Shown here: positions 1 through 23,638 of the stretch, one piece after another
Layout: the number at the start of each line of letters is the position of its first letter
How positions within the stretch are numbered: the stretch's first letter is position 1
Assembly (NCBI GenBank): GCA_947589225.1
Contig: CANQBC010000023.1
Coordinates: 1 to 33,037 of the forward strand
Direction of reading: 5' to 3'
DNA from: an uncultured Oscillospiraceae bacterium
Lineage (GTDB): Bacteria > Bacillota > Clostridia > Oscillospirales > Oscillospiraceae
DNA: 33,037 bases
Program-made: the position numbers and the translations under genes
Notes under the pieces: model-generated
Told to the model about the DNA's origin: nothing
Databases searched by the model: none
The model's input: the letters and a program-made list of their open reading frames with translations, nothing else

Positions 1-214
1 GTTTCGCTCCCGCCCGGTGGGCGGAACCGCGAAACATGGCGAATATACCATCCCCGCTTCGCGGGTATGGTATAATAACCGCATAGCGGATATTATGTTT
101 AATTTTCGGCCGTTTTTCTCCCCGGCTTCGCCGGGAACCGAAAAACATGGCGATTATATTTGATTTCATGCCGTTTCGCTCCCGCCCGGGGGGCGGAACC
201 GCGAAACATGGCGA
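1..214 (+). repeat. Array of three stem-variable hairpin repeats plus an extra hairpin
   Basis: Three units share one design: outer stem, TC, inner stem, 3-nt loop, inner stem, AACC, outer stem, then ATGGCGA. Outer stems are GTTTCGC/GCGAAAC (1-7/29-35), GTTTTTC/GAAAAAC (112-118/140-146) and GTTTCGC/GCGAAAC (173-179/201-207). Inner stems are CCGCCC/GGGCGG, CCCGGC/GCCGGG and CCGCCC/GGGCGG. The arms change together, so pairing is conserved rather than sequence. Units 2 and 3 are 61 bp apart. Between units 1 and 2 lies another hairpin (44-74, 13-14 bp stem with one mismatch) and a small CCGC-ATA-GCGG hairpin (79-89). A fourth copy lies at 22832-22909. I do not recognise the family. Unit 1 touches the window edge, so the array may extend further left. 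Confidence 0.85.
68..76 (+). promoter_or_regulatory. Candidate extended -10 promoter inside the repeat array
   Basis: TGG-TATAAT forms an extended -10 element. No good -35 hexamer lies 16-18 bp upstream. The same position of the related element at 22.8 kb carries TGT-TATAGT, there with a good -35. This makes a promoter for the LysR gene plausible but unproven. Confidence 0.35.
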
Positions 215-225
215 ATATACCGGTC

Positions 226-261
226 TGTCAAATAAGCTCTGGGCGCCGACAAGGGGGACGT
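226..261 (+). repeat. Dispersed repeat, copy A (TGTCAAATAAGC ... ACGT)
   Basis: The block begins TGTCAAATAAGC and ends GACAAGGGGGACGT. It aligns with 30809-30855 (identical first 12 bases, then CAAAGGGACGT) and more loosely with 4939-4984 (CAAAGGGGAACGT). Here it directly precedes the LysR start and supplies its AAGGGGG ribosome binding site. Confidence 0.5.
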
Positions 262-263
262 AT

Positions 264-1202
264 ATGAACATTCTCCATATGAAATACGCCGTAGAAGTGG
301 CCCGGACAGGGTCGTTGAGCCGCGCCTCCGAGACGCTTCTCATTGCCCAGCCGAACCTGAGCCGGGCGATCAAGGAGCTTGAGTCGGATCTGGGTATCAC
401 CGTTTTTGACCGTTCGGCCAAGGGGATGACCCTGACCCCTGAGGGTGAGGAGTTCATCGGCTACGCGTCCCGGATCCTGGGGGAAATCTCCGATGTGGAA
501 AACCTCTACAAGGGCGAGGTGCGCAAAAAGCAGCGCTTTTCCATCTCCGTGCCCCGGGCCGGCTACATCTCCGACGCCTTCTCCCGCTTCTCCCAGGCCC
601 TGGGCCCCGACGGGGCGGAGATTTTTTATAAGGAAACAAATTCCGACCGGGCCGTCCGGAACATCCTTAACTCCGACTACCACCTGGGTATCATCCGCTA
701 CGCCGAGAGCTTTGACCGGTATTTCCGGGACATGCTGGTGGAGAAGGAACTGGAGAGCGAGCTGGTCGCCCGGTTCCACTATGTACTCATGATGAACGAA
801 AAAAGCCCCCTGGCGAGTCTGCCCGAGATCCATTTTTCCGATCTTGCCCCGCTGATCGAGATCGCCCACGGCGACCCGTTTGTCCCCAGCCTGCCCATGT
901 CGAGAGTGCGGAAGGAGGAGCTGCCGGACAACGTCTCCCGCCGCATCTTCGTCTTTGAGCGCGCCAGCCAGTACGAGCTCCTCGCCCGAAATCCGGAGAC
1001 CTTTATGTGGGTCTCCCCCACTCCCGACGGTCTTCTCCGTCGTTTCGGCCTCACAGAGCGCGAGTGCCCGGAAAACAAGAAGATCTACCGCGACGTGCTT
1101 ATCTACCGCAAGGGCTACAAGCTCACCCCCCTGGACAGGCGGTTTATAGCCGAGCTTATGGAGTCCAAAAAGAGGTATATTATTACCCCGGCGGCAAAAT
1201 AA
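264..1202 (+). CDS. LysR family transcriptional regulator
   Basis: A 312-residue protein of normal LysR length. The N-terminal winged helix-turn-helix (about residues 3-62) includes SRASETLLIAQPNLSRAIKE and the family's F-D-R-S turn. The rest is the two-lobed effector-binding domain, so an unknown small ligand probably controls DNA binding. The start at 264 is chosen because AAGGGGG lies just upstream and the protein then begins directly with the HTH. An in-frame ATG at 147 would add 39 residues that only translate the hairpin repeat. The next gene, adhE, is 260 bp downstream on the same strand and is a possible but unproven target. LysR genes more often face their targets divergently. Confidence 0.9.
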   Translation: MNILHMKYAVEVARTGSLSRASETLLIAQPNLSRAIKELESDLGITVFDRSAKGMTLTPEGEEFIGYASRILGEISDVENLYKGEVRKKQRFSISVPRAGYISDAFSRFSQALGPDGAEIFYKETNSDRAVRNILNSDYHLGIIRYAESFDRYFRDMLVEKELESELVARFHYVLMMNEKSPLASLPEIHFSDLAPLIEIAHGDPFVPSLPMSRVRKEELPDNVSRRIFVFERASQYELLARNPETFMWVSPTPDGLLRRFGLTERECPENKKIYRDVLIYRKGYKLTPLDRRFIAELMESKKRYIITPAAK

Positions 1203-22803: not shown

Positions 22804-22832
22804 ATGACAGAGGGGATCTTTTGTGTTATAGT
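22804..22832 (+). promoter_or_regulatory. Sigma-A promoter of the ABC transporter operon
   Basis: ATGACA, a 17-bp spacer and TATAGT, with an upstream TGT that makes an extended -10. Transcription should start near 22839, inside the hairpin repeat that follows. Confidence 0.75.
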
Positions 22833-22909
22833 ATCCGCAGAAACGGATATTATATTTATTTCAAGCCGTCCCGCTCCCGTCCACCGGGCGGAACTGCGGG
22901 ACATGGCCA
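22832..22909 (+). repeat. Fourth copy of the stem-variable hairpin element, in the ABC operon leader
   Basis: A small TATCCG/CGGATA hairpin (22832-22837/22844-22849) leads through TATTATATTTATTTCAAGCCG-like sequence to the main hairpin. The outer stem is GTCCCGC/GCGGGAC (22868-22874/22896-22902) and the inner stem CCGTCC/GGGCGG with one G-U pair. The spacers TC and AACT and the final ATGGCCA match the copies at 1-214, but the outer stem differs on both arms. The ATG at 22903 opens a four-codon frame (Met-Ala-Thr-Thr-stop) just before the ATPase ribosome binding site. Confidence 0.82.
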
Positions 22910-22936
22910 CTACATAAAGTTGAGGTAAAGCAGGTC

Positions 22937-23638
22937 ATGGCCTTCATTGAGTTTGAGAATGTAAAAAAGATCTACCGCTCCGGCGAGGTGGAGGTGGAAG
23001 CCCTCCACGGGGTCTCCTTTGAGGTGGAGCGGGGTGAGATCTGCGTCATCGTGGGCCCCTCCGGCGCGGGAAAGACCACGCTTCTCAACATCTTGGGGGG
23101 CATGGACAGCCTGACGGACGGGAGGATCACCCTGGACGGGGAGGAGATCTCCGCCTACACGCCAAAGCGCCTCATCTCCTACCGGCGGCGGGACGTGGGG
23201 TTTGTTTTCCAGTTTTACAACCTCATTGAGAATCTGACGGCTCTGGAGAATGTGGAGCTGGCCGCGCAGATCTGCCCCGACCCCCTGGACGCGGCGGAGA
23301 CGCTGCGGGCCGTGGGGCTGGGGGAGCGGCTGCGCAACTTCCCCTCCCAGCTCTCCGGCGGCGAGCAGCAGCGGGTCGCCATCGCCAGGGCTCTGGCCAA
23401 GAACCCGAAGCTTCTTTTGTGCGACGAGCCCACCGGGGCGCTGGACTACAACACGGGCAAGCAGATCCTTCAGCTTTTGGAGGACACCAGCCGTAAGTCC
23501 GGCATGACCGTCCTCATCATCACCCACAACTCCGCCCTCACCGCCATGGCCGACCGGGTCATCACCGTGCGCAACGGCACCGTGCGGGACGTGAAGCTCA
23601 ACGAGGCCCCCGTTCCTATTTCTCAGATCGAATGGTGA
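22937..23638 (+). CDS. ABC transporter ATP-binding protein (MacB/LolD type)
   Basis: A 233-residue ATPase with every motif intact: Walker [10 protein letters not shown] (40-48), Q-loop FVFQFYNL, signature LSGGEQQ (139-145), Walker [13 protein letters not shown] (D163, E164) and the switch histidine in IITHN. The type is that of FtsE/LolD/MacB, which drives mechanical work by FtsX-fold permeases rather than ordinary import. The permease gene starts 7 bp after its stop. GAGGT lies before the ATG. Confidence 0.96.

Follow-up and report, generated by a model that had tools for sequence, protein, structure and literature searches.

Gene-less elements of about 111 bases with three hairpins lie behind promoter −10 hexamers in gut Clostridia

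Elements of the IS200/IS605 group carry a copy of their own target at the 3′ end, and integron attC sites are recombination sites made of a folded single strand with extrahelical bases and with boxes of the form RYYYAAC...GTTRRRY. The ends-only IS200/IS605 elements known as PATEs are described as gene-less elements that form an imperfect hairpin, insert 3′ of a short specific sequence without target duplication, and hold a guide that pairs with the cleavage site (PMC7290912; PMC8266576). REP/BIME repeats are dispersed and consist of a strand-polar hairpin with an irregular stem (PMC8266576), and CGTC-tagged palindromic repeats are said to be without a dedicated transposase (PMC3733652). A search of the open-licence literature returned no description of a hairpin element that targets the −10 of promoters.

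In this study, we analysed a stretch of 33,037 nt from an uncultured Oscillospiraceae bacterium (hereafter the window), which starts at base 1 of its contig. Its hairpin repeats belong to a family of gene-less mobile elements of about 111 bases that have inserted repeatedly behind the −10 hexamer of unrelated genes in gut Clostridia. Aligned copies revealed that the full unit is ~111 bp in length and contains three hairpins, H1, H2, and H3, in the order host −10 hexamer, H1, a linker ending in GCC, H2, GGC, and H3. H1 has the form TATAAT-ATCCGC-loop-GCGGAT-ATTATA, with the −10 within its 5′ arm, and H3 has the form ATTATACCAT...ATGGTATAAT, with a second −10 within its 3′ arm. The left end of the element is ATCCGC-like and the 3′ end is the element's own TGGTATAAT-like copy. 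The right end was of the TATAAT type in 19 out of 22 single-unit rows; 16 of these were 110 to 112 bp in length, and the other three were 113 bp (L019, where a degraded unit comes next), 119 bp (L336), and 126 bp (L021). The degraded second unit of L019 (1259–1413, G000:C32) is followed by a cobalamin riboswitch in the same orientation (Rfam RF00174, 42.7 bits). Units are also found in arrays, which have a single orientation and mix H2 subtypes (e.g., GTTTTTC, GTTTCGC, GTTTTTC in L010), as expected from serial insertion.

The first 214 positions of the window are the remnant of an array of three units (Table 1). Unit 1 has no H1 because of the contig start, unit 2 has no H3, and unit 3 has no H1 and only the start of H3, units 2 and 3 being fused by one deletion. 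The 3′ arm of H3 of unit 1 extends into the terminal TGGTATAAT at 68–76. A second copy in the window (22827–22907) has lost H3. Contigs break in or near arrays (window position 1, C9, C17, L136, L140), and copy numbers in MAGs are therefore probably underestimated. At L031 (1426–1637 and 2714–2815, G032:C14), a gene and its promoter are apparently duplicated in tandem, with two element units at one copy versus one at the other.

Table 1. Positions in the window of the parts of the repeat units and of neighbouring promoter and gene features
Feature	Position	Strand	Basis or remark
H2 of unit 1, GTTTCGC-TC-CCGCCC-GGT-GGGCGG-AACC-GCGAAAC-AT-GGC	1..40	+	Sequence; GCC and H1 beyond contig start
H3 of unit 1, TATACCAT..CCCGC-TTC-GCGGG..ATGGTATA	44..74	+	Sequence; H3 in other copies
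TATAAT common to H3 of unit 1 and H1 of unit 2; junction after 76	71..76	+	Empty sites of other copies
H1 of unit 2, TATAATAACCGC-ATA-GCGGATATTAT, one A-A mismatch	71..96	+	Sequence; homologous H1 in 49-unit alignment
H2 of unit 2, GCC-GTTTTTC-TC-CCCGGC-TTC-GCCGGG-AACC-GAAAAAC-AT-GGC	109..151	+	Covariance model, 110.5 bits for 60-160
Fusion of start of unit 2 H3 to unit 3 linker (internal deletion)	152..169	+	Comparison with full units
H2 of unit 3, GCC-GTTTCGC-TC-CCGCCC-GGG-GGGCGG-AACC-GCGAAAC-AT-GGC	170..212	+	Sequence
Start of unit 3 H3 (GAATATACC), unique sequence thereafter	213..221	+	Sequence
Downstream gene, LysR-type regulator (HTH_1)	264..1202	+	AAGGGGG at 251-257 possible RBS (by eye)
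Host promoter -35 (ATGACA), 17 nt before -10	22804..22809	+	Sequence; -35 signal over 96 flanks
Host promoter -10 (TATAGT, TGT before); element starts after 22832	22827..22832	+	Sequence
H1 of second element, TATAGTATCCG / CGGATATTATA	22827..22854	+	Sequence
H2 of second element, GCC-GTCCCGC-TC-CCGTCC-ACC-GGGCGG-AACT-GCGGGAC-AT-GGC	22865..22907	+	Covariance model, 87.2 bits for 22816-22916
Downstream gene, ABC transporter ATP-binding protein	22937..23638	+	Gene-neighbour identification

The layout of the element, with insertion 3′ of its target, a strand-polar irregular hairpin, and pairing arms, resembles that of single-strand IS200/IS605 elements. Like PATEs, it is gene-less, has an imperfect hairpin, is inserted 3′ of a short specific target, shows guide-like pairing and, at one decisive locus (L334), gives no target duplication; it differs from them in that no Y1 was detected in the genome, in its three hairpins, in having a promoter element as target, and in guide-like stretches of at least six bases versus four in PATEs. 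An attC site is likewise a folded single strand with extrahelical bases, but the RYYYAAC...GTTRRRY boxes are absent in that order (H2 alignment, by eye) and there is no cassette gene. Dispersal and a strand-polar hairpin with an irregular stem are shared with REP/BIME and RAYT systems; however, no GTAG/CGTC tag is present here, H2 being flanked by GCC and ATGGC in the H2 alignment, no RAYT was found in the genome, and the unit is of ~111 bp with flanking hairpins and one-orientation arrays. The CGTC-tagged repeats are alike in that they are said to lack a dedicated transposase (PMC3733652), although the present element has no CGTC tag and has an exact insertion site in promoters.

A preliminary description of the window had noted four hairpins in which a left-hand TC faces a right-hand AACC or AACT, the loop is 3 nt long, and a box lies 3′ of the stem. 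All four H2 hairpins were found, at 1–35, 112–146, 173–207, and 22868–22902, with ATGGC as the 3′ box. Elsewhere in the window's genome, the loop is 3, 4, or 6 nt and the box is ATGGC, ACGGC, TTGGC, or AAGGC; its conserved part is GGC, which starts two bases 3′ of the hairpin and pairs with the GCC just 5′ of it. In a distant lineage (L406, L407), GTGC and GCAC are present in place of GCC and GGC. A MAFFT alignment of 49 units had 96.7% of its cells paired and double changes in 15 out of 28 pairs; the observed value was reached by none of 500 shuffles on four of five measures and by 3 of 500 on the fifth, counts that are not true probabilities because the element copies are related. Among 63 distinct H2 sequences, drawn from several genera and including a second element type, 96.0% were paired, a percentage that is partly a matter of choice since these sequences were selected by eye from 156 pattern matches; 14 out of 16 pairs had double changes, and the covariation score was 0.511 versus 0.164 when shuffled and at most 0.153 when slid. 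The internal loop is nearly constant across the 63 sequences (left TC, right A[A/G]C[C/T]). The stems pair as the preliminary description had written them, outer and inner stem both co-vary, and the co-variation in the two data sets supports its proposal of selection for a folded hairpin.

The same description had given the number of copies as four. This is too low: the hairpin that it saw, H2, forms the centre of a mobile element with three hairpins, and this element has 41 matches in the genome; further copies with co-varying pairs, for which it had advised a search, turned up in the genome and in the order. The enzyme that it imagined to read the asymmetric internal loop is plausible, although none was found, neither Y1 nor RAYT being detected in the genome. 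It had known no named element of such form, and we likewise found no named family: Rfam gave no match for the window at the gathering threshold, and the three matches for window 1–300 at E up to 10 were all far under the gathering score (best E 0.018).

In the window's genome, the covariance model R1 gave 41 matches that scored 56 bits or more, including two of type B (see below); its lower-scoring matches there include antisense echoes. R1 matched 29 out of 147 genomes and 17 out of 85 genera of the order (E up to 0.01), some of the 29 genomes resting on weak or partial matches (L100, L101, and L104–L106 are not full elements), and 12 out of 391 genomes and 7 out of 222 genera of the class (E up to 1e-4). 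Families outside the order have the three-hairpin layout at L406–L408, while at L409 and L410, also outside the order, the internal loop differs. A pattern scan of genome contigs found at least 108 stretches, and the named carriers listed are mostly Oscillospiraceae/Clostridia MAGs with isolate names beginning with Lapin, which we infer, from the name only, to be from rabbit gut. The pattern also fitted 26 loci that, by their titles, are not from Clostridia; none of these had an R1 match, and they look like chance. This re-test took 108 of the 111 loci L107–L217, the short L113, L176, and L184 being left out. Three viral contigs fit the pattern and none had an R1 match. A plasmid or phage origin was rejected, window 1–158 having no match in the plasmid or phage collection. 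No autonomous copy was seen among the loci read, and the XRE-type gene whose end closely precedes an H2 (L016/L073) looks like an ordinary neighbour. A further repeat (CCGCTCCACGCGGGCCC...; query 366–440) is present in many copies in each of the six genomes searched; at L202 it adjoins the tRNA-T-arm-like GGGAGTCGAACCC, and neither L329 nor L202 has an Rfam match.

Besides the promoter-associated element (type A), a second type was recognized. Type B (L220–L228, L231, and others) has H2 as in type A, with the flanking hairpins TTATTAAATCGGCA... and ...CGCGGGAGTAATA. Its copies are intergenic, have no promoter signature, and apparently lie in both orientations relative to genes; L233 in the window's own genome and L240 are also type B.

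Insertion takes place immediately 3′ of the host −10 hexamer (TGNTATAAT). We examined the sequence to the left of 96 first units (50 at named loci, 46 from other genomes). The left hexamer was TATAAT in 81, TG was present at −3/−2 in 77, and a −35 signal at 17-nt spacing was seen as T in 70, T in 58, and G in 50 flanks at −23, −22, and −21, counts that retain a few rows in which the left hexamer was wrongly assigned (L044, L154; type B L220, L222, L227); L168 was missed and is quoted by sequence. At least four of the six letters of TTGACA occurred at spacing 16–18 in 48 of the 96 flanks versus 9 to 20 at six control offsets. With a strong −35, TG was present in 17 out of 24 element promoters versus 15 out of the 62 TTGACA-N16-18-TATAAT sites found in the own genome (Fisher p = 1.2e-4), the 24 coming from several genomes and at least two of the 62 being element sites. 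Ten of the 16 type A neighbours in the window's genome encode a LysR regulator, an ABC ATPase, an amidase, MurJ, a GH31 glycosidase, TsaE, an ATP-grasp protein, a HAD phosphatase (YqeG-like), AddB, and a Phos_pyr_kin kinase; these downstream genes are unrelated and have no common theme. Transcription is expected from the loop of H1, about 7 nt after the left −10, and from the native site behind the right −10.

Empty sites were found in sister species at nine loci, namely tsaE, yqeG, L339, L328, L343, L332, L344, L329, and L334. At tsaE, the site is empty in G019 (...TTAAATTACTGTGCTATAATACCTCC), while in its sister G005 the element follows directly after TGTGCTATAAT and is itself followed by ACCTCC. 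For tsaE and yqeG, the promoter region was read for 24 of 30 loci per gene: the element occupies tsaE in three of the 24 rows (G000, G005, G033) and yqeG in one, that of the window's genome (G000). In two of the yqeG rows (G017 and G022) the reading was not in frame; the promoter of G020 is a different one, and G010 has TATAATATCCGCG with no H2, perhaps a remnant. Comparing the joined flanks of 17 elements with six genomes revealed empty sites for seven; those of L328, L332, and L343 show small indels or divergence beside the junction. L336, L346, and L347 align to more distant element-free places, and poorly at the junction, and the other seven had no contiguous match among the matches listed. 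The fact that occupancy is not conserved and that the downstream genes are unrelated indicates a mobile gene-less element rather than the leader of a regulon.

Both outer hairpins hold an inverted copy of the −10. The H1 stem is present in 94 of the 96 first units, and its arm is exactly complementary to the left hexamer in 70 of the 94. In 83 cases, the N of the left TGN was matched by the right copy 54 times (shuffled mean 36.2) and by the H3 5′ arm 56 times (shuffled mean 37.9). The agreement with the arm is due for the most part to the frequency of G: for a left N other than G, it was seen in 12 out of 36. Rare hexamers are mirrored in all four copies at L168 (TAGAAT type) and L141 (TACAAT type) and in H1 only at L331; at L328, the TACAAT-type arm is kept and the empty site of the sister reads TACAAT, but the flank of L328 itself has become TATAAT. 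No mirror accompanies the rare hexamers of L334, L025, and window 22827, and the H1 arm is an exact fit in only three of the 14 rows whose left hexamer is a variant, an assignment that is wrong for some of these rows. At L202, in the genome of L168, a TAGAAT-type H1 arm lies behind TATAAT, a mismatch that suggests that arms are passed on within element lineages and are not taken anew from each target. Strict complementarity of target and arms was not found, and this counts against the explanation that we favour.

The insertion point, the empty sites, the promoter context, the co-varying hairpins, the arrays of different units and, at the single decisive locus L334, the lack of a target duplication are all observed features of the element. 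On this basis, we consider, with a probability of roughly 0.55, that it is a non-autonomous mobile element of ~111 bp that inserts 3′ of the −10 (TGNTATAAT), brings its own TGGTATAAT-like 3′ end, and moves as a folded single strand. Movement would proceed as folded single-stranded DNA, as in IS200/IS605 elements, with H2 as the recognition hairpin, which a putative enzyme may recognize strand-specifically via the TC/AACC internal loop. The inverted −10 copies in the 3′ arm of H1 and the 5′ arm of H3 may act as guides by pairing with the cleavage sites, that on the left (host) and that on the right (element), respectively, and the single-stranded target may be the unpaired non-template strand of an open promoter. 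The −35 and −10 of the host would stay intact and a second extended −10 would be placed before the native start, so that insertion should be cheap for the host. That this is a widespread selfish family of Clostridia that lands in the melted promoter (the non-template −10 strand of the open complex), is directed there by guide-arm pairing, leaves the promoter working, and is moved by a not-yet-recognized kind of enzyme is a more far-reaching idea, which we put forward tentatively and ourselves rather doubt.

Stem co-variation would also be expected of a cis-regulatory 5′ leader RNA (riboswitch-like or protein-binding) that is kept, together with a promoter, by selection, and a start codon with an RBS does lie within 260 nt downstream in 58 out of 66 named arrays and 14 out of 20 own type A arrays. 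Such a start is also found on the other side in 45 out of 66 and 11 out of 20 arrays, however, which makes the measure weak. Moreover, H1 straddles the −10, so that half of it would be left untranscribed from that promoter, type B copies are without a promoter, and the element has no Rfam match. Most sister species read have the same promoter without the element, and the genes downstream are unrelated to one another, which leaves a conserved regulatory RNA unsupported; we dropped this explanation after the empty sites had been found and regard it as highly improbable. A classical MITE, with terminal inverted repeats, target duplication, and a DDE transposase, is improbable as well, even though the element is short, gene-less, and dispersed and many copies have the −10 as a direct repeat at left and right. 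By eye, the two ends (ATCCGC-like and ...TGGTATAAT) are not related by a terminal inverted repeat, and the right −10 can be traced to the element at L334, where the left copy is TACAAT, the right copy is TATAAT, and the empty site in the sister (L378) is TACAAT. This one decisive case shows an element that brings its own 3′ −10 and no target duplication; L331 has a similar pattern, in the filled copy only. The other empty sites do not discriminate: L339 and L343 are indecisive because the right copy equals the target, yet the H3 5′ arms largely fit too. L022 and L024, where right equals left although the H3 arm does not pair completely, lean towards target duplication or later change.

A recombinase that acts site-specifically on double strands (of the tyrosine, serine, or RNA-bridged IS110 type) deserves more weight than these two. 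A circle with a TGGTATAAT junction would recombine with a chromosomal TGNTATAAT, donor and target sharing the sequence left of the crossover, and the hairpins would be secondary. The same junctions would result, which counts against the single-strand reading, and the concordance at N above chance is in keeping with such an exchange. On the other hand, this enzyme would have no obvious use for an H2 that is conserved in a strand-polar manner with near-constant unpaired TC/AACC, and the left and right copies are unequal in L331, L332, and L334. We see the recombinase as possible but unlikely.

For the folded single-strand element that we favour, two known kinds of enzyme were considered as mobiliser and rejected. 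Y1_Tnp (PF01797) gave no match in the own genome, a 97.3% complete MAG, while control genomes matched in 5 out of 14; Y1 is absent from 20 of the 29 motif genomes, including G000, G042, G066, G084, G106, G129, G141, and G160. A Y1 match, in some cases short or weak, occurred in 9 out of 29 motif-carrying genomes versus 43 out of 118 other genomes of the order, so that Y1 is not associated with the motif. A protein of G024, which we take from its motifs to be a RAYT, was used as query and left the own genome unmatched; it matched 5 out of 147 genomes, among them G129 only over the repeat-like residues 43–78. The RAYT-like gene at L394 (G024:C45:18191–19006) carries an in-frame segment (residues ~50–80) that recurs in more than 10 other places in G024 and seems to be a different small repeat with insertions in coding sequence.

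If the favoured reading is true, the element would be a mobile element that targets the promoter element itself, keeping the host promoter and adding an extra extended −10 and a hairpin leader. H2 offers a search handle for the putative mobilizing enzyme. Single-strand insertion into transcription bubbles could be tested on this family, which would also offer a direct route for the rewiring of gene expression across gut Clostridia.
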